Shown: positions 30,764 to 44,353 of the stretch, in pieces | Layout: each line of letters starts with the position of its first letter | Position numbering within the stretch: the first letter of the stretch is position 1 | Source of the DNA: Syntrophobacterales bacterium | Lineage (GTDB): Bacteria; Desulfobacterota; Desulfobaccia; Desulfobaccales; 0-14-0-80-60-11 | Direction of reading: 5' to 3' | NCBI GenBank assembly: GCA_023512475.1 | Contig: JAILZL010000022.1 | Span: 1-48,827 of the forward strand | Length of the DNA stretch: 48,827 nucleotides | Notes under the pieces: generated by a model | Databases searched by the model: none | The model's input: the letters and a program-made list of their open reading frames with translations, nothing else | Told to the model about the DNA's origin: nothing | Translations under genes and position numbers: made by a program

Positions 30764-31603
30764 TCATTCCGCCCAGATGACCCCGGCGTAGCCCACGAAG
30801 GAGTCCCCCGGCAGGACGTCGTAGCTGGTGTAGTACTCCACCAGCACCCCCCGGGTGGCGCCCAGCTTTTTGGCCCCGGCCAGAGCCGCGGCGGGCGCGC
30901 CGGCGGAGCAGGAGCTCAGGTCCCGGTCTGCCAGGGAGAGAGCCGCCAGGGGGTCCAGTCTCAGGAGCGCCTCCAGGAAGCGCCGGTCATTCACCTCCTT
31001 CACCCACTTTACCGCGGCCGGACCATAGCCCTGGGGGGCGAAGCCGTAGTTGAGCCCGTAGTGGGTGAGGTCGGCGGAGCCGATGAGAAGCAGGCTCTGC
31101 CCCAGTTCCTGGGCCACCTCCACCACCGCCTCCCCCAGGCGCACCGCCTCCGGGGTCTGGGGGGCGCGCACGGCCAGGAGCCGGGACCGGGGGAAGAAGT
31201 ATTTCACGAAGGGCAGGTTGACCTCAATGGTGTTATCGCCGGGGTATTCCGGCTTCAGGGGGAGCCGCCGCCTGAGGGGGTCGTAGAAGTCGGTGGCCAG
31301 GGGGATGTCCCCCAAAGGGGTCTCCCAGGCGTCCTCGGTGACCAGCAGGGGCGGGCCCCCGGCCAGATGCCCCCCGAAAAGGGCCACCACCTCGGGCTGG
31401 CCGGCCTGGGCGCAGAGAGAGAAGACCCGGGCGGCCAGCTTGCCGGAGAAATACCAGCCGGCATGGGGCACCAAGCCCCCCTGGGGCTGAAGGCCGGGCT
31501 CCAGGGGCTGCAGCCCGGCGATGAATTTCTCGATTTCCGCCCGGCAGGCCGCGCCGCTGCCGGGGTACCAGCCGGATGACAACATGCGGGGGCGCACCGC
31601 CAT
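30764..31603 (-). CDS. amrB: AmmeMemoRadiSam system protein B (Memo-like)
   Basis: 279 residues with an AGGAGG site before the ATG. It begins MAVRPRMLSSGWYPG and has GLVPHAGWYFSGKLAARVF, HLAGG, and GSADLTHYG, the histidine-bearing segments of Memo/AmmB proteins, which resemble class III extradiol dioxygenases in fold. AmmeMemoRadiSam proteins occur as sets of a Memo-like protein, an AMMECR1 domain and a radical-SAM protein. The other members are not in this window. The reaction is not well defined in bacteria. It lies 126 bases after the carboxyltransferase-like gene and may be part of that leftward transcript. Confidence 0.85.
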   Translation of the reverse strand: MAVRPRMLSSGWYPGSGAACRAEIEKFIAGLQPLEPGLQPQGGLVPHAGWYFSGKLAARVFSLCAQAGQPEVVALFGGHLAGGPPLLVTEDAWETPLGDIPLATDFYDPLRRRLPLKPEYPGDNTIEVNLPFVKYFFPRSRLLAVRAPQTPEAVRLGEAVVEVAQELGQSLLLIGSADLTHYGLNYGFAPQGYGPAAVKWVKEVNDRRFLEALLRLDPLAALSLADRDLSSCSAGAPAAALAGAKKLGATRGVLVEYYTSYDVLPGDSFVGYAGVIWAE

Positions 31604-31729: not shown

Positions 31730-33397
31730 TCAGCCCTTGCCGGTCTTGAGGAGAAATTCCTCCACTTGGCCGTTGATGGTGAGGAACACCGGGGTGAACT
31801 CCTCATCCCGGGGGAAGGTCTTGCCCACCCGGATGCGATAGGTGTCGCCATGCAGGGTGACGAGGTATTCCGGCGCCTCCCCGGTGCCGGGGGCCAACTG
31901 CACCAGGATCTCCTCGGTATTGTCATGGATGTTGATGAAGAGCACCTGCTTGCCGTGGCGCTCGCCCCCCACCCCCTCCAGCCGGGCCGCCACCTCGTCC
32001 CCCCGGTGAGCCAGCACCAGAGAGGAGGTGCTGATGGAGATGGGGTAGGGCTGCGGGGGCCGGGGGGCCCGGGGCGGGGCCGCGCCGGCGCTGCGGGCGT
32101 AAAAGAGCTCCTCTGCCTCCGCCGGGAAGAGGGAGTAGGTGAGAAGATCCTCCTCCGTGTCCAGATCCGGCCGGTGGAGCAGGGGCGCCTCTTCCTCCAG
32201 TTCCTCCTCCACGCCCTCCACCCAGCCCAGGACCCGCTGCTGCAACTCCAGGCTCACCGGGGTGTGGAGCCGGCCGTAGCGGCCCTTGAGGAGGTCCACC
32301 AGGCTGGGGACCAGGGTGTCGTAGCGCCGGGGGGCCAGAATGTTCTCCACCGCCTGCAGGCCCACGATCTCCAGGATGCGGCCCTTGAGGGCCGGATAGC
32401 CCAGGTCGGCCCAGACCTGGTGGGCCTCCTTGTAGGCCTGGCTCTGCCGGTCCCGGGCATCCCGACGCAACAGCTCCTCCCGGACGAAGTCCTTCAGCAG
32501 GCCGGGGATGGAGGCAGGCCCCGGCAGATCATCGGGCCGCCTCAGGGCCGGCTCCTGGTAGTGGTATTGCTCTTTCAGGTAATCGATGAATTCCGTCGCC
32601 TCGCCCAAGGCGTCCATGTCCAGCTGCGGATCATGGCGGGTGCCCCCCAAAGACAGCATCAGGGACTGGACCGGGGGCGGCCCGTACGGCCAGGAGAGGG
32701 CTGCCAGGGTGGTGTCCACCAGCTCCGCCCCCCGGCGGACCCCCTCCTGATAGCAGGCCACCGCAGTCTGGAGGTTGTCGTGCAGATGCAGCCGCACCGG
32801 CTGGGAGTAGTAGCGCTTGAAGGCCGCCACCAGGGTCCCCACCTGCAGAGGGGCCAGCATCCCGAAGGAATCGTTGAAGCAGATGACGTCCGCGCCCAGA
32901 TTCACCAGGCGGCCGGCCAGGTTGAGGTAATCCTCCAGGGTGATGTGGGGGTTCTGGCTGATGAGCACGGTGGCTTCCACCTGCTTGCGCAGCTCCTTGC
33001 CGGTGGACACCGCCACCGCCATGTTGTCCGGGTCGTTGAGGTTGTCATAGACCCGGATGATATCCACCCCGAAGTGGGCCGCCCGGGTGACGAAGCGGCG
33101 GATGAGCTCGGGCTCGTAGGGCTTGAAGCCCACCAGCATGCGCCCCCGGATGATCATCTGCAACGGGGTGTTGGCCAGGGCCCGGCGCAGGCGCCGCAGG
33201 CGCTGCCAGGGGTCCTCCTTCATCTCGGTGAGGGTGGCGTAAAAGGTGGTGCCGCCCCAGCAATCCAGGGAATAGAAACCCACCCGGTCCAGGAGGGCGG
33301 CCAGACGCACCAGATCCTCCTGCACCAGGAAGCGGTGGACAAAGTCCTCCTGGCCATCCCGCAAGGTGACGTCGCTGACTTTGGCCGGATTAAACAT
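31730..33397 (-). CDS. Carboxyltransferase-fold (PycB/OadA-like) protein lacking key catalytic residues
   Basis: 555 residues. The first about 300 match the TIM-barrel carboxyltransferase domain of pyruvate carboxylase or oxaloacetate decarboxylase: LRDGQED (12-18), SLDCWGGTTF, QMIIRGRMLVGF, DIIRVYDNLND, metal-site HLHDN (H204, H206). Two residues central to the known chemistry differ. The lysine that is carbamylated in the usual CIKDMAG motif is N175 here (CFNDSFG), and the threonine after the HxHD motif is N208. A PYC/OADA-type helical domain follows, then about 100 residues that end TINGQVEEFLLKTGKG where a biotinyl domain would begin; no MKM biotin site exists. Its ATG overlaps the stop of the biotin carboxylase gene by 8 bases. 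It may use another acceptor or have a non-carboxylating role. Confidence 0.8.
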   Translation of the reverse strand: MFNPAKVSDVTLRDGQEDFVHRFLVQEDLVRLAALLDRVGFYSLDCWGGTTFYATLTEMKEDPWQRLRRLRRALANTPLQMIIRGRMLVGFKPYEPELIRRFVTRAAHFGVDIIRVYDNLNDPDNMAVAVSTGKELRKQVEATVLISQNPHITLEDYLNLAGRLVNLGADVICFNDSFGMLAPLQVGTLVAAFKRYYSQPVRLHLHDNLQTAVACYQEGVRRGAELVDTTLAALSWPYGPPPVQSLMLSLGGTRHDPQLDMDALGEATEFIDYLKEQYHYQEPALRRPDDLPGPASIPGLLKDFVREELLRRDARDRQSQAYKEAHQVWADLGYPALKGRILEIVGLQAVENILAPRRYDTLVPSLVDLLKGRYGRLHTPVSLELQQRVLGWVEGVEEELEEEAPLLHRPDLDTEEDLLTYSLFPAEAEELFYARSAGAAPPRAPRPPQPYPISISTSSLVLAHRGDEVAARLEGVGGERHGKQVLFINIHDNTEEILVQLAPGTGEAPEYLVTLHGDTYRIRVGKTFPRDEEFTPVFLTINGQVEEFLLKTGKG

Positions 33398-34838
33398 GGC
33401 TGCCGCTCTTTTTGGCGATCTGATTCAGGTGGCAGAACAGGGCCGCACTGGCCACATAGAAGCGGTCCCAGGGTTCCACCACCTCCTCATAGGTGAGTTC
33501 CGGCAGCTTGCGCTCCAGAAAATCGGTGGTGAAGGTGCCGGCCCGGAACTCCTCGTCCTTAAGCAGACGGCGATAAAAGGGGATGGTGGTCTTGATGCCC
33601 CGGATGACATACTCCCCCAGGGCCCGGTCCATGCGGGCCAATGCCTCCTCCCAGGTGCGCCCCCAGACGCAGAGTTTGGAGAGCAGAGGATCAAAGTAGG
33701 GGGGCACCTCATAACCGCCGAAGACGCAGCCGTCCAGACGGACCCCCACCCCCCCGGGGGAATAGTAGCGGGTGATGCGTCCCGGCGAGGGGAAGAAGTT
33801 GTTCCGGGGATCCTCGGCGTTGATGCGGCATTCGATGGCATAACCCCGGAGCATCACCTCCTCCTGGGTGAAGGACAGGGGTTCCCCGGCGGCCACCCGG
33901 ATCTGCTCTTTCACCAGGTCGATGCCGGTGATGAGCTCGGTGATGGGGTGCTCCACCTGCACCCGGGTGTTCATCTCCAGGAAGTAGAAATTGAGATGCT
34001 TGTCCACCAGAAATTCCATGGTGCCCAGGGAATGGTAGCTCAGGGAGGCGGCCGCCTTTTTGGCCACCTCCCCCATCTCCTGGCGCTTTTCCGGGGTCAG
34101 CACCAGGGAGGGGGCGATTTCGATGAGCTTCTGGTGCCGCCGCTGGATGGAGCAGTCCCGTTCCCCCAGGTGCACCAGGCGGCCCTGAGTGTCCCCCACA
34201 ATCTGGATCTCGATGTGTTTGGGCTCCTCGATGAACTTTTCCAGATAAATGCCTTCATCGCCGAAGGCGCGGCCGGCCTCCCGGCGGGCCCCCTCCAGGC
34301 TGTCCAGCATCTCCTCTTCGGTCCACACGAGGCGCATGCCCCGGCCGCCGCCGCCGCCCTTGGCCTTCACCAGCAAGGGGAAGCCGATGCGGGCGGCGTG
34401 CTCCCGGGCCTCCTCCGGGGCCGTGATCACGGGCGACCCGGGAATGATGGGCACCCCGGCCGCCGCCATGAGCTGCCGGGCCAGAACCTTGTCCCCCATC
34501 TGCCGGATGGCCTCCGGGGGCGGGCCGATGAAGGTGAGCCCGGCCTCAACGCAGGCCTGGGCGAACTGCCAGTTCTCCGCCCCGAAGCCGTAGCCGGGGT
34601 GAATGGCGTCGGCCCCGGCCCACTTGGCCACCTCAATGATCTGGGGGAAATCCAGATACCCCGCCAGGGGCCCCGGACTCACGGAGATGGCCTGATCCGC
34701 CTTGACGATATGGAGGGCGTTGGCATCATGTTCGGTGTAAATGGCCACCGTGGGGATGCCCAGCTCCTTGCAGGCCCGGATGATGCGGATGGCGATCTCA
34801 CCGCGGTTGGCAATCAGGACTTTGCGAAACAGAGGCAT
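33390..34838 (-). CDS. Biotin carboxylase subunit (PycA/AccC type)
   Basis: 482 residues from the ATG at 34838; the open frame extends 5 codons to a TTG. N-terminal FRKVLIANRGEIAIRIIRACKE, the ATP-grasp glycine loop KAKGGGGGRGMR, CSIQRRHQKLIEIAPS, and the catalytic EMNTRVQVEHP are all present. The C-terminal about 45 residues past the usual AccC end (YEEVVEPWDRFYVASAALFC) resemble stand-alone pyruvate carboxylase A subunits. It carboxylates biotin on a carrier using ATP and bicarbonate. The carrier is not encoded here, as the coupled downstream protein lacks a biotin domain. A good promoter lies at 34886-34914. The ribosome site is weak. Confidence 0.9.
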   Translation of the reverse strand: MPLFRKVLIANRGEIAIRIIRACKELGIPTVAIYTEHDANALHIVKADQAISVSPGPLAGYLDFPQIIEVAKWAGADAIHPGYGFGAENWQFAQACVEAGLTFIGPPPEAIRQMGDKVLARQLMAAAGVPIIPGSPVITAPEEAREHAARIGFPLLVKAKGGGGGRGMRLVWTEEEMLDSLEGARREAGRAFGDEGIYLEKFIEEPKHIEIQIVGDTQGRLVHLGERDCSIQRRHQKLIEIAPSLVLTPEKRQEMGEVAKKAAASLSYHSLGTMEFLVDKHLNFYFLEMNTRVQVEHPITELITGIDLVKEQIRVAAGEPLSFTQEEVMLRGYAIECRINAEDPRNNFFPSPGRITRYYSPGGVGVRLDGCVFGGYEVPPYFDPLLSKLCVWGRTWEEALARMDRALGEYVIRGIKTTIPFYRRLLKDEEFRAGTFTTDFLERKLPELTYEEVVEPWDRFYVASAALFCHLNQIAKKSGSHV

Positions 34839-34885
34839 GGTCAAGGAAACCAAGATAATTATTTTTTCTTTAAAATCCTAAGATT

Positions 34886-37256: not shown

Positions 37257-37463
37257 GCCGTGCTAGACGGGGAGCTAGCGGTGCCCTGTAACCCGAAAGC
37301 CGCTTATGCGGGGTTGAACCCCCTCCCAGAGCCTCGCAGCGCCGCCCGGGCGGCGGCCCGCCGGGCGGATTGGACCCCACGCAACAGACGCCGGTGAACC
37401 CCGTCAGGTCCGGAAGGAAGCAGCGGTAAGCCGGGCCGGCTGTGTCGTGGCGGCAGCTAATCC
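37257..37463 (+). ncRNA. ffs: Signal recognition particle RNA, about 205-base form
   Basis: The core GTCAGGTCCGGAAGGAAGC (from 37403) is the domain IV Ffh-binding hairpin with GGAA tetraloop. About 145 bases precede it, beginning CCGTGCTAGACGGGGAGCTA, followed by GCGGTGCCCTGTAACCCG and a closing GCGGGGTTGAA. This layout resembles the longer RNAs known from actinobacteria and other groups rather than the 114-base 4.5S RNA of E. coli. Ends are placed by eye and may be off by 5-10 bases. Confidence 0.88.
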
Positions 37464-37753
37464 TACACCCCCGGGCCTAAAACCCAGGCGGTGGCGGAGG
37501 CGAAGGAGGGTGCACGGCCAGGGTGGCTTTGCCGCCGGCGGGGGGCGGAAGTAATCCCCCGACCTCCCCCGGCGCCTCTTCCCCCCTCGCCCGGGGCACG
37601 GTCCCGGGCCCTTCCCCTGTCCCCTTTCCCGACGATTCTTCCAGGGGCGCCTTTTTTTCCTTTGTCCCCCCTACCGAGCTTGTGCTAAGATGGACATGCT
37701 GTGGCCCGGCCCAGCCACGGCGAGCGCTTACCCTTGAGGGAGGAAGCACGCGC
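37464..37753. other. Leader region of the formate dehydrogenase operon
   Basis: 290 bases without a supported gene. The fdhA frame stays open upstream to 37523, but that part lacks family similarity and a ribosome site. A candidate promoter lies at 37662-37691. Confidence 0.4.
37662..37691 (+). promoter_or_regulatory. Candidate promoter of fdhA
   Basis: TTGTCC and TAAGAT with an 18-base spacer. The start would fall near 37698, about 55 bases before the fdhA ATG. Confidence 0.4.
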
Positions 37754-40444
37754 ATGGCCGAACCCACTCTGACCCTCAATGGGAGGACCGTGGCCTTTCA
37801 GCCCGGTCAGACCATCCTTGAGGTGGCCCAAGGGGCCGGGGTCTATATCCCCACCCTCTGTTACATGAAGGACACCCTGCCCACCGGTTCCTGTCGCGTC
37901 TGCGTGGTGGAGGTGGAGGGGGCCCGCACCCTTCTCCCTGCCTGCGCCACCCAGGCCGCGGCCAATCAGGTGATCCAGACGGAGAGCCCCCGGGTGGCCG
38001 CCGCCCGGCGCATGGTGCTGGAGCTGGCCCTGGCCAGCGGCAACCACAACTGCCTCATCTGCGAGGCCAACGGCGAATGTGAGCTCCAGGCCCTGGCCTA
38101 CCGCTACCAGGTGCCCACCCCCGCCTTCGCCGCCCCCCCGGACACCCCCTATTATTTCGAAGACAACAACAGCATGATCGTCCGGGATTTCTCCAAGTGC
38201 ATCATGTGCGGCCGCTGTGTCCGGGGCTGCACCGAGCGCCAGGTGAACGACGCCATCGCCATCGGCTACCGGGGCTCCCACAACAAGATCGTGGCCAAGG
38301 CGGACAAGACCTATATCGAGTCCGACTGCGTCTTCTGCGGCGAATGCGTCCAGTCCTGCCCGGTGGGGGCGCTGCTGGACAAAAACGCCATCGGTCAGGG
38401 CCGCTCCTGGGAACGCACCACGGTGCGCACCGTCTGCCCCTATTGCGGCGTGGGCTGCCAGCTGGAGGTACACGTCAAGGACGACCGCATCCTCAAGGTG
38501 ACCGGGGCCGACGCCGTCCCCAATGAGGGCCGTCTGTGCGTCAAAGGCCGCTTCGGCTGGCACTTCGTGCACCATCCCGACCGCCTCACCACCCCCCTGC
38601 TCCGGAAAAACGGGGAGCTTACCCCCGTGAGCTGGGACGAGGCCCTGGACTATGTGGCGGCCCGGCTCACGGAGATCAAGGCGAAATACGGTCCCGGGCA
38701 GATCGGCGGCTGGTGCTCCGCCCGCATCACCAACGAAGAGAATTACCTCATGCAGAAGTTCATGCGGGCGGTCCTGGGCACCAACCACGTGGACCACTGC
38801 GCCCGTCTCTGACACAGCGCCACCGTGGCCGGTCTGGCCGCTTCTTTCGGTTCCGGCGCCATGACCAACTCCATCGCCGAGTTGGAGGACGCCAACTGCA
38901 TCCTGGTGATCGGCTCCAACACCAATGAGAACCACCCGGTCATCGCCGCCCGCATCAAACGGGCGGTGCGCTTCAGGGGTGCCGATCTCATCGTGGTGGA
39001 CCCCCGGCGCCAGGACCTGGTGAAGTTCGCCAAACTCTACCTCCGGCAGATCCCGGGTACCGACATCGCCCTCCTCAATGCCATGATGCACGTCATCATC
39101 CGGGACAACCTGTATGATGCGGCTTATGTGGCGGAGCGCACCGAAAACTTCGAGGCCCTGAAGGAGACGGTGGCGGCCTACACCCCGGAGCGGGCGGAGA
39201 GGATCACCGGCATCCCGGCCAGGGACATCGAGGCCGCGGCCCGGATGTACGCCCAGGCCAAAGTGGCCTCCATTGTCTATTGCATGGGCATCACCCAGCA
39301 CACCGTGGGCACCGACAACGTCAAGGCCCTGGCCAACCTCGCCATGCTCTGCGGCAATGTGGGGGTCTGGGGCGGCGGCGTCAACCCCCTCAGGGGCCAG
39401 AACAACGTCCAGGGCGCCTGCGACATGGGGGGCCTGCCCAACGTCTTTTCCGGCTACCAGCCGGTGACGGACGAGGCGGCCCGCAAAAAGATGGAGGCGG
39501 CCTGGGGGGTTTCGAACCTTCCCGCCTGGGTGGGGAAGACCATGACCGAGATGCTCCCCGCCATCCATGCCGGGGAGATGAAGGCCCTCTACATCATCGG
39601 GGAGAACCCGGCCCTGTCGGACGCCGATGCCCACCACGCCATCCAGGCCATGCAGAAGCTGGAGCTCCTGGTGGTGCAGGACATCTTCCTCACCGAGACG
39701 GGGAAGCTGGCCCACGTGGTCCTGCCCGCGGCCTCCTTTGCCGAAAAGGACGGCACCTTCAGCAACACCGAGCGCCGGGTGGCCCGGGTGCGCCGCTGCA
39801 TCCCGCCCCTGCCGGGCACCAAACCCGACTGGCAGATCATCTGCGAGCTCAGCACCCGCATGGGCTATCCCATGAGATACGCCTCCCCGGAGGAGATCTT
39901 CGAGGAGATCCGCACGGTCACCCCCTCCTACGCCGGCATCACCTATCAGCGCCTGGAGGCGGGGGGCATCCAGTGGCCCTGCCCCACCGAGGAGCATCCC
40001 GGCACCGTCTTTTTGCACAAGGACCGCTTCGCCCGGGGGCTGGGGATGTTCTTCCCCGTGGAGCACAAGGACCCGGCGGAGATGCCCGATGAGGAGTTCC
40101 CCCTGTATCTCACCACCGGGCGCCTCCTTTACCATTACCATACCGGCACCATGAGCCGCCGGGCCCCGGGGCTGGTGGAGAAGGCCCCGGAGTGCCGGGT
40201 GGAGCTGGCCGCGGCGGACGCCGCCCGGCTGGGGATCGCCGAGGGCGACACAGTGCGGGTGCGCTCCCGCCGGGGGGAAATCACCGCCCGGGCCACCATC
40301 TCCCCCAAGGCGGTGGCCGGTACGGTGTTCCTCCCCTTCCATTTCGCCGAGGCGGCGGCCAACAAGCTCACCAACGCCGCCCTGGACCCGGTCTGCAAGA
40401 TCCCGGAATTCAAGGTCTGCGCCGTGCAGGTCACGAAAGCGTAA
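37754..40444 (+). CDS. fdhA: NAD-linked formate dehydrogenase alpha subunit, selenocysteine-containing
   Basis: 896 residues if TGA at 38810-38812 is read as selenocysteine (residue 353, in DHCARL-U-HSATVAG). The frame continues past the TGA without shift, and the segment matches the active-site motif of molybdenum/tungsten formate dehydrogenases. N-terminal region: [2Fe-2S] domain (CYMKDTLPTGSCRVC), a His/Cys cluster (HNCLICEANGEC), two [4Fe-4S] sites (CIMCGRCVRGC, CVFCGECVQSC), then CPYCGVGC and the bis-molybdopterin guanine dinucleotide catalytic domain. This NuoG-like front end passes electrons to the NuoEF-type partner encoded next. GGGAGGA precedes the ATG at 37754. The protein oxidises formate to CO2 or does the reverse. 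Confidence 0.96.
38810..38850 (+). promoter_or_regulatory. Bacterial SECIS element in fdhA
   Basis: After the TGA, GGCC (38827-38830), loop GGTCT (38831-38835) and GGCC (38836-38839) form the apical stem-loop. The loop sequence GGTCT and its distance of 18 bases from the TGA are the same as I recall for E. coli fdhF. SelB should bind here to direct selenocysteine insertion. The lower stem is less certain. Confidence 0.85.
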
Positions 40445-42409: not shown

Positions 42410-42480
42410 GGGGGAGTCTTTCCCCGCCGGCGCATCTCTTATCCCGGATGCCTACAGGGGAAGAGGGGGGCTGCGGGGCC

Positions 42481-43860
42481 TCAGGTGCCCGGCCTTTCCC
42501 CCATCTCCTTCACCCCCTCCCCCACCAGCAGGGCGGCCAGGGGGGCGATGTGCAGCAGGAGGCGGTCCAGGGTGGCCCGGACATAGAGGGGGAATTCCTC
42601 CGCGGAGGTGGGGGCCAGGGCGTAGCCCAGGAGGATGGCCAGGAGGTTGCCGGCCAGGGTGAGGGCCGGAAACAGGAGCGGGCTGCGCCACAGACGGCGG
42701 CCCAGGAGGAGGGCGGCGGCCAGGGTGGCCCACCACAGCACCCCGAAGGCGAAGGGCAATGCCAGGATTTTCAGCAGAGAGGGGATGGCCTGAAAGAACT
42801 GGTGGGGGAAGAAGCTCAGGATGTGGTCCGCCCCCACCTCGATATGCTGCTGCGCCATGAACCAGCGCCAGGGGAGGGTGCCCAGAAGGATCCCTCCCAC
42901 CGGCCAGGCCAGGGCCACCAGACGGGGGCCCAGGGTGGGGGGGCGGAGCCACAGCAGGGTGAGGGCGGCGGCCAGGATGAAGGTGGCGGCCAGGGGCGCA
43001 CCCTCAAACTTGGTCCAGGCCAGCCCGGCGCACATCAGGGCGATAAGGGGGAGGCTCCCGGGCGGGGCGGCGTCTTGCAGGGTCAGATAGAGGAGCCCGG
43101 CGGCTCCCACCGCATAGAAGGTGAGGGGCAGATCGGCGTAGGCGATGTAGAGGTGGGTGAGGAAGGTGACCCCGCTGGTGGCGAAAAACAGGGTGACCCC
43201 CAGGGCCTGGCCCCGGGTAAGCCCCCGGCGTCGCAGCAGGGCATACAGCCAGCCCAGGGTGAGGGCCCCCCACCAGGGGAAGAGCCCCTGGGCCAGGTGG
43301 TCCTGGACGCCCCCCAGGGTGAGGTAGAAGAAGGTGAGGAGCAGGGGCACATGGTTGGGGTAGTACGGGTGGGCCGTCAGGCCCTGAAGGTCCATACTCT
43401 GCCGGAGGTAAAAGATCTTGGCCTTGAAGCCCCAGGTGGCGATGCTGTCCCAGGCCCACATGGGGAAGAGGACGGCCCGGAGGAAGGCAAAGAGCAGCAC
43501 CAGGAGCAATCCGGCCAGGCAGAGCTTTTCCACCGGCGTCCAGGGGGGAGAGAAGGCGTGAGTAATCCTCGTCCCCAGGAAGGGGTGGCCCCGGACGCGG
43601 GTGGCCAGGAGGAGAGCGGCGGCCAGGCCGGCCAGGGGCAGGTGCACCGCCTCGAGGCGGAAGGGAATCCCCCAGGCACTCAGGGCCAGCATCCACCAGG
43701 TGACGGCCAGGGAGCCGACGCCGAAGCTGAGGGCCAGGATTTCGGTCCCGGCATAGTGGCCGGGGCGGGGGCACAGGAGGCGGAGCAGGGCGTAGCCGAT
43801 CAGATGGCAGAAGCCCAGGGCCGAAAGCCAGCGCAGCGCCACCAGCAGGCCCTCAATCAT
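42481..43860 (-). CDS. Multi-pass membrane protein, GT-C glycosyltransferase-like
   Basis: 459 residues with about 11-12 hydrophobic segments. After the third or fourth helix the loop AWDSIATWGFKAKIFYLRQ carries an acidic residue and KAK, similar to the first luminal loop of GT-C (family 39/83-like) enzymes, which transfer sugars from polyprenyl-phosphate donors on the outer face of the membrane. Further loop features are HPYYPNHVPLL and TKFEGAP. Such proteins often modify lipid A, O-antigen or proteins. Its ATG overlaps the stop of the preceding small gene by 8 bases. Substrates cannot be set; the family call is by pattern only. Confidence 0.65.
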   Translation of the reverse strand: MIEGLLVALRWLSALGFCHLIGYALLRLLCPRPGHYAGTEILALSFGVGSLAVTWWMLALSAWGIPFRLEAVHLPLAGLAAALLLATRVRGHPFLGTRITHAFSPPWTPVEKLCLAGLLLVLLFAFLRAVLFPMWAWDSIATWGFKAKIFYLRQSMDLQGLTAHPYYPNHVPLLLTFFYLTLGGVQDHLAQGLFPWWGALTLGWLYALLRRRGLTRGQALGVTLFFATSGVTFLTHLYIAYADLPLTFYAVGAAGLLYLTLQDAAPPGSLPLIALMCAGLAWTKFEGAPLAATFILAAALTLLWLRPPTLGPRLVALAWPVGGILLGTLPWRWFMAQQHIEVGADHILSFFPHQFFQAIPSLLKILALPFAFGVLWWATLAAALLLGRRLWRSPLLFPALTLAGNLLAILLGYALAPTSAEEFPLYVRATLDRLLLHIAPLAALLVGEGVKEMGERPGT

Positions 43861-44353
43861 AAAAGTCCCCCTGAAGGCGGCCCAGGTCCACCCGGAAGAG
43901 CAGGCCCCGTCCGGAGGGGGGACAGGCCGAAAAGGCCGGGGTGGCCACGGCTCGCGCCACCTCCGGGCTCAGGGGCTCCGGGGCGGTGTGGGCCACCAGA
44001 AAACCCGCCTGATGATGGCGCAGGAGATAGAAGAGATAGCTGGGCGGCAGGTTGGGGGCGCCCAGCACATGCCGCCGGGGAAAGAGGTGATAGCGGGCCT
44101 CGATCTCCTTGCCCCGCTCGTAGCGGTCCAGGAAGAGGTAGGCGCCGGAAGGGGGGATCTCCCGGGACAGCTCCAGGATCCAGAGGTAAAAGGGGTCCTC
44201 CAGGCGCACCGCGGCGCCCCGGGGGCCCCACAGGAGACGCCGGCCCGAATCCAGGACATCCGGCCCCAGCTCCCACAGAACCCAGAGGCCCTGCAAGGCC
44301 CACAGCAGCAGGAAGAGGCGCGTCAGCCAGATGAGACGGGCAGAGGTGGGCAT
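43853..44353 (-). CDS. Small membrane-anchored protein coupled to GT-C-like gene
   Basis: 166 residues. One N-terminal hydrophobic helix (about 7-28) precedes a soluble domain with no motif I recognise; SYLFYLLRHHQAGFLV and PSGAYLFLDRYERG are its most distinctive parts. The pattern of an anchor plus a small extracytoplasmic domain next to a GT-C-like enzyme suggests an accessory role. Its stop overlaps the next ATG (ATGATTGA), so translation is coupled. No clear ribosome site precedes the ATG at 44353; the start is uncertain. Confidence 0.6.
   Translation of the reverse strand: MPTSARLIWLTRLFLLLWALQGLWVLWELGPDVLDSGRRLLWGPRGAAVRLEDPFYLWILELSREIPPSGAYLFLDRYERGKEIEARYHLFPRRHVLGAPNLPPSYLFYLLRHHQAGFLVAHTAPEPLSPEVARAVATPAFSACPPSGRGLLFRVDLGRLQGDFYD

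Follow-up and report, generated by a model that had tools for sequence, protein, structure and literature searches.

A carboxyltransferase homologue without the carbamylated lysine and the biotin domain is probably not an ordinary enzyme but a holder or regulator of a shared biotin carboxylase

In the window analysed here (the whole stretch of 48,827 nucleotides from a Syntrophobacterales bacterium), a biotin carboxylase (BC) gene is followed by the gene of a carboxyltransferase (CT) homologue, called CT-N below, in which an asparagine occupies the place of the lysine that bears the metal-bound carbamate. What does a biotin carboxylase do with a partner that seems unable to complete the usual reaction? 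A literature search, of partial coverage, returned no paper linking Desulfobacca to a BC/CT-N pair or describing a carboxyltransferase pseudoenzyme. The features of the locus are collected in Table 1.

Table 1 Features of the BC/CT-N locus (positions in the window)
Feature	Position	Strand	Basis
Memo-family AmmeMemoRadiSam system protein B, downstream neighbour	30764..31603	-	TIGR04336
CT-N, lysine-less and biotin-less carboxyltransferase homologue, 555 aa	31730..33397	-	ORF, PF00682 and PF02436, AlphaFold model
BT-like half-barrel copy 2 of CT-N, residues 508-551, at the place of the biotin-domain linker of PycB	31745..31876	-	Profile match E 8.3e-15, four strands in model (low pLDDT)
BT-like half-barrel copy 1 of CT-N, residues 455-503	31889..32035	-	Profile match E 1.8e-8, four strands in model
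PYC_OADA-like helical domain of CT-N, residues 298-437	32087..32506	-	PF02436, helices in model
CT-N TIM barrel, residues 1-280, with R13, D14, R84, N175, D176, R202, H204 and H206	32558..33397	-	PF00682, alignments, model
Asn175 codon, column of the carbamylated lysine	32873..32875	-	Lys in all 80 canonical homologues, Asn in the 17 complete type I proteins and Gln in the four distant ones
BC, PycA-type, 482 aa from ATG	33390..34838	-	ORF, Pfam BC domains, PDB match
BC C-terminal tail PWDRFYVASAALFCHLNQIAKK, hydrophobic and Ala-rich	33408..33473	-	Sequence, comparison of BC tails

The BC is complete, with the Biotin_carb_N, CPSase_L_D2 and Biotin_carb_C domains all present (Pfam), and among PDB entries it is best matched by 1ulz, the BC from the pyruvate carboxylase (PC) of Aquifex aeolicus (E 1.7e-171). 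Its ATG start codon is at 34838, with an in-frame TTG at 34853 as an alternative, and CT-N starts with an ATG at 33397. The end of the BC gene overlaps the start of the CT-N gene by 8 bp (33390-33397, minus strand). The initial annotation had described a complete BC translationally coupled to its partner, and the coordinates, the ATG starts, the overlap and the three Pfam domains all agree with this. In one genus the two genes are set apart by an insertion of about 1 to 3 kb with differing contents (L043:2319-5379; L007, L008, L009), thus the overlap is not kept everywhere.

CT-N contains an HMGL-like (PF00682) and a PYC_OADA (PF02436) domain, and the RD and HxH metal motifs of the HMGL-like/DRE-TIM proteins are found on its TIM barrel. 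By sequence, its closest relative of known structure is the beta subunit of the two-subunit PC of Methylobacillus flagellatus (MfPC; 5ks8_C, E 9.8e-75). Indeed, the AlphaFold model of CT-N (pLDDT 81) matches 5ks8_C with a Z-score of 47.0 over 480 residues, OadA with 46.6 and transcarboxylase 5S with 46.5, so the PC/OadA-type CT fold first recognised by eye is well founded. CT-N therefore resembles PycB in its CT TIM-barrel with a PYC_OADA domain and in being encoded with a PycA-type BC. However, Pfam gives no Biotin_lipoyl match in CT-N, unlike what is expected of PycB and OadA, and the scores against the NCBIfam model 'pyruvate carboxylase subunit B' (355 bits) and against TIGR01108 for OadA (333 bits) do not reach the respective cut-offs of 402 and 756.5. 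Matches to aldolases are weak (56.7 bits for 4-hydroxy-2-oxovalerate aldolase; Z 29.4 for 1nvm).

Orthologues of CT-N (type I below) were found in 18 genomes of the same order, Desulfobaccales, which comprises sulfate reducers and their relatives; these genomes are spread over two families, and 17 of them are complete in one frame. Four further members come from two other families of the phylum (G085, G283, G263 and G302). All 21 complete proteins fall into a single clade with 100/100 support, in a tree for which the program flags long branches. Position 175 is Asn in all 17 complete type I orthologues and Gln in the four distant members.

To place this residue we used as a control 80 canonical PycB/OadA-type homologues from many phyla, obtained by a profile search with the type I alignment. 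Every one of them, including a 2-oxoglutarate-carboxylase-like homologue, has Lys in the column of N175, and none has Asn; N175 also aligns with the lysine of 1rqb and 1s3h. In this residue CT-N departs from PycB, OadA and transcarboxylase 5S alike. The Thr found in 75 of the 80 homologues at the column of N208 is replaced as well, and the initial reading of the site (Asn for the carbamylated lysine, H204 and H206 kept, Asn for Thr) is upheld by the alignment. That reading had named two observations that would count against it. The first, Asn in canonical homologues, has a count of 0/80; the second, another lysine in the metal site, was looked for in the alignments and in the model and was not found. 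A substitute was rejected on the grounds that the only family-invariant lysines, K134 and K275, both lie in helices and none is at the barrel mouth.

The remainder of the site is partly kept and partly remodelled. Residues R13, R84, D176, H204 and H206 are present in all 21 complete members, and D14 is conserved except for a replacement by Glu in two of them. Moreover, an arginine two residues N-terminal of the first metal histidine, R202, is new and invariant (21/21); the seven PycB proteins compared have His there. W236 (20/21) and Y238 (17/21) stand for Ser and Thr. The substrate-site residues are not kept: CT-N has E17, Y53 and F91 where the canonical proteins have Q (80/80), D (80/80) and Y (79/80), columns that we take to be Q552, D590 and Y628 of the R. 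etli enzyme. Several substrate-site residues also differ between the Asn branch and the Gln branch.

The initial annotation further stated that the protein stops where the biotinyl domain should begin. The biotin domain is indeed absent, but CT-N is not truncated, as residues 508-551 make up a second half-barrel. In MfPC, a four-stranded sheet (residues 470-512) sits between the CT and biotin domains, and the sheets of two beta subunits enclose one hydrophobic C-terminal helix of BC to form an alpha1-beta2 'BT-like' domain (PMC5059739). An alpha2-beta4 build from the half-barrels of two subunits is thought to be common to bacterial two-subunit PCs (PMC5059739). CT-N contains this BT-like segment, from which binding to BC is predicted by sequence, and contains it twice. 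In profile comparisons, copy 1 matches the PycB segment with E 1.8e-8 and copy 2 with E 8.3e-15, and the two copies match each other with E 7.8e-6. Control windows elsewhere in CT-N have E-values no better than about 0.2, apart from one of 0.0025 that reaches into copy 1. In the AlphaFold model, runs of four strands are seen at residues 459-501 and 510-550, the second with low confidence, which could reflect the absence of the BC helix from the model. The C-terminal 111 residues folded alone give eight strands in the expected order (pLDDT 51).

The MfPC contact residues H476, G477, E478 and E507 correspond to H516, G517, D518 and E547 of CT-N. H516, G517 and E547 are invariant in the 21 family members. 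At position 518, the type I proteins carry Asp or Glu, and those with Gln175 carry Lys, Arg or His. On the side of BC, the tail PWDRFYVASAALFCHLNQIAKK is predicted to be the central helix of the BT-like barrel, and like the MfPC helix it is hydrophobic and Ala-rich (PMC5059739). With both half-barrels in one chain, CT-N could encircle the BC C-terminal helix alone, and the two proteins would then be bound 1:1. A profile of the doubled segment gives strong matches (E 1e-32 or better) in 17 of 395 genomes of the phylum, namely 13 sampled from the order and the four genomes with Gln members, and eight other genomes have a single copy, which scores no better than about 1e-7.

Family searches found one BC locus in every genome of the order searched, the window's genome included. 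The BC match of G011 is split in two pieces, and the other matches in these genomes are low-scoring ATP-grasp proteins, mostly of carbamoyl-phosphate-synthase size. A carrier in trans, which the initial annotation proposed to look for, is available: two biotin domains are encoded in the window's genome, on contigs other than the window's. One belongs to a canonical 655-aa PycB with the lysine, encoded beside a PccB/MmdA-type acyl-CoA subunit (L032), and this PycB matches the half-barrel only partially (26 columns, E 1.9e-4). The other is on a small protein, whose gene adjoins those of an OadB-type sodium pump and of methylmalonyl-CoA mutase (L031). Beside this biotin protein and the OadB-type genes, one gene (L031:3319-4995, minus strand) joins an HMGL-like (citrate/isopropylmalate-synthase-like) domain to a Cache-type sensor domain. 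AccA and a separate AccD were not found in the CT-N genomes tested. The absence of AccA is consistent with our model but not diagnostic, because a strong AccA match is missing in 263 of the 395 phylum genomes. Three genomes with ordinary PycAB (G143, G080 and G043) have AccA and AccD, and the first two encode a second BC as well.

Elsewhere in the window, on the plus strand, a formate-dehydrogenase-like molybdopterin protein (37523-40444) is split by an in-frame TGA (38810-38812, context VDHCARL-TGA-HSATVAG). This TGA looks like a selenocysteine codon, and the two ORFs listed are probably one selenoprotein. A bacterial large signal recognition particle RNA (RF01854, Rfam, 133 bits) lies at 37258-37517, and downstream of the formate dehydrogenase-like genes a 628-aa ORF (42448-44334) has no Pfam match at E 1e-5.

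CT-N is under purifying selection, with dN/dS of 0.06-0.09 within the genus and 0.16-0.21 in a sister genus; the BC values are 0.045-0.057. As to its origin, the gene immediately downstream of CT-N belongs to the Memo family in 18/18 type I loci, and weak Memo matches are found near ordinary PycAB genes in three other loci (L136, L139 and L140). Furthermore, the BCs of the Gln members are 53-63% identical to the window's BC, and the PycA proteins of G143 and G080 are 56-58% identical to it. Because of this shared neighbour and the relatedness of the BCs, our data suggest that PycB evolved into CT-N at its original place.

CT-N is missing from ten other genomes of the same family, which have instead a different biotin-less CT homologue, near BC in most loci, that keeps the lysine (ISIKNYAGLG). 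This protein is about 55% identical to biotin-bearing PycB-like proteins of G044 and G032. Homologues of this kind, 543-559 aa long and on a separate branch, are found at L033-L040 and L046 (G003, G004, G007, G009, G010, G011, G012, G014 and G017). No genome among those searched has CT-N together with it. The carrier arm thus seems to have been lost at the sole-BC locus at least twice.

Several functions can be weighed against these observations. CT-N could catalyse carboxyl transfer or decarboxylation by a new chemistry, in which Asp14, His204 and His206 hold the metal, Asn or Gln175 and Arg202 replace the carbamate-lysine, an unknown keto-acid is the substrate and the carrier comes in trans. 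The invariance of H204, H206, R13, R84, D176 and R202, the purifying selection and the presence of biotin carriers in trans all speak for this, but the lysine is universal in the active-type homologues, even the 2-oxoglutarate-carboxylase-like one, and the replacement is not uniform, with Asn in one branch, Gln in the other, Glu for Asp14 in two members and a substrate site that varies between branches. We regard such an enzyme as possible, though doubtful. Worded more broadly, as a lysine-free member of the CT lineage that handles carboxybiotin or a keto-acid through an Asn/Gln-Arg-metal centre, holds BC by a single chain and draws on carriers in trans, it is the main rival to an anchoring or regulatory role, and in this form we hold it to be rather doubtful. 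An ordinary PC pair in which Asn simply replaces the lysine and the biotin domain is supplied in trans would fit the operon layout and the overall similarity to PycA-PycB. It is very improbable given that Asn occurs in none of the canonical homologues, that several substrate-site residues are changed together and that the genome already has a canonical PycB with lysine and biotin.

CT-N might also be a biotin-independent lyase or aldolase, or a ligand sensor, of the HMGL-like (DRE-TIM) kind, sharing with BC only the operon and a complex. The carbamate-lysine is not known as part of this wider superfamily, and the Pfam HMGL-like match and the weak aldolase matches point the same way; however, CT-N is far closer to PycB/OadA (355 bits, Z 47), and it is bound up with BC through the BC-binding segment that it has twice, which makes this reading unlikely. 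Finally, a decaying gene could have lost a domain and a catalytic residue in this way, but the gene is intact in 18 genomes across two families and has gained new invariant residues and a duplicated segment, and dN/dS of 0.06-0.21 speaks so clearly against decay that we reject it as scarcely credible.

The initial annotation had left the choice between a carboxylase with altered chemistry and a structural or regulatory partner. The doubled segment, the losses in the pyruvate site, the Asn or Gln at position 175 and the change of D14 to Glu in two members favour the latter and make new carboxylase chemistry the less favoured of the two. CT-N is probably not an ordinary enzyme, but rather a holder or regulator of a shared carboxylase. 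In its specific form, in which a PycB was rebuilt at its own locus into an anchor or regulator of the cell's only BC that does not itself transfer CO2, we give this explanation an even chance. The protein no longer has the biotin domain and several pyruvate-site residues, and Asn or Gln has taken the place of the carbamyl-lysine. It has kept the CT fold, both metal histidines, Asp/Glu14, R13 and R84, and has gained a second BT-like half-barrel. With both half-barrels from one chain, a stable 1:1 BC:CT-N unit could form, as against the known alpha1-beta2 arrangement. As suggested by the gene content, this unit would carboxylate biotin in trans, on the canonical PycB and on the OadB-linked carrier, as AccC does with AccB, and the single BC could thereby serve several reactions. 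Conservation of the metal ligands, R13, R84 and the new R202 speaks against a scaffold, as a pure scaffold would not need them. Least certain of all, the remodelled barrel site may take up a metal together with a small ligand resembling a keto-acid, and adjust assembly or BC activity, with no CO2 transfer.

Transcarboxylase 5S (1rqh) and the CT domain of OadA (2nx9) have the CT fold in common with CT-N, and 5S, too, is not known to carry a biotin domain. Unlike CT-N, both use the lysine, work without a BC partner and have no doubled BC-binding segment; the use of the lysine by the OadA carboxyltransferase has been described (PMC2881705). The nearest known system is the two-subunit PC of PycA and PycB (5ks8, PMC5059739), which shares with the BC/CT-N pair a separate BC gene, overlapping or adjacent, a hydrophobic C-terminal helix of BC, the BT-like half-barrel and the closest fold. 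CT-N differs from it by the missing carbamyl-lysine and biotin domain, the altered substrate site, the half-barrel present twice and the predicted 1:1 instead of 1:2 stoichiometry. In plants, the BADC proteins are non-catalytic homologues that act as glue in the BC complex of heteromeric acetyl-CoA carboxylase (PMC11926652). They offer an analogy only: a homologue of a catalytic part that has lost its key residue and has a role in assembly (PMC11926652). BADC derives from the biotin carrier and not from a carboxyltransferase, and no homology to CT-N is claimed.

If our reading is right, the locus would be a natural case of a BC that is no longer tied to a transfer subunit of its own and that several reactions have in common. 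CT-N thus raises the questions of how one BC serves several carboxylases and of what role a CT barrel has without the carbamate. Genes like that of CT-N, which score as 'pyruvate carboxylase subunit B' below the cut-off, probably lack that activity.
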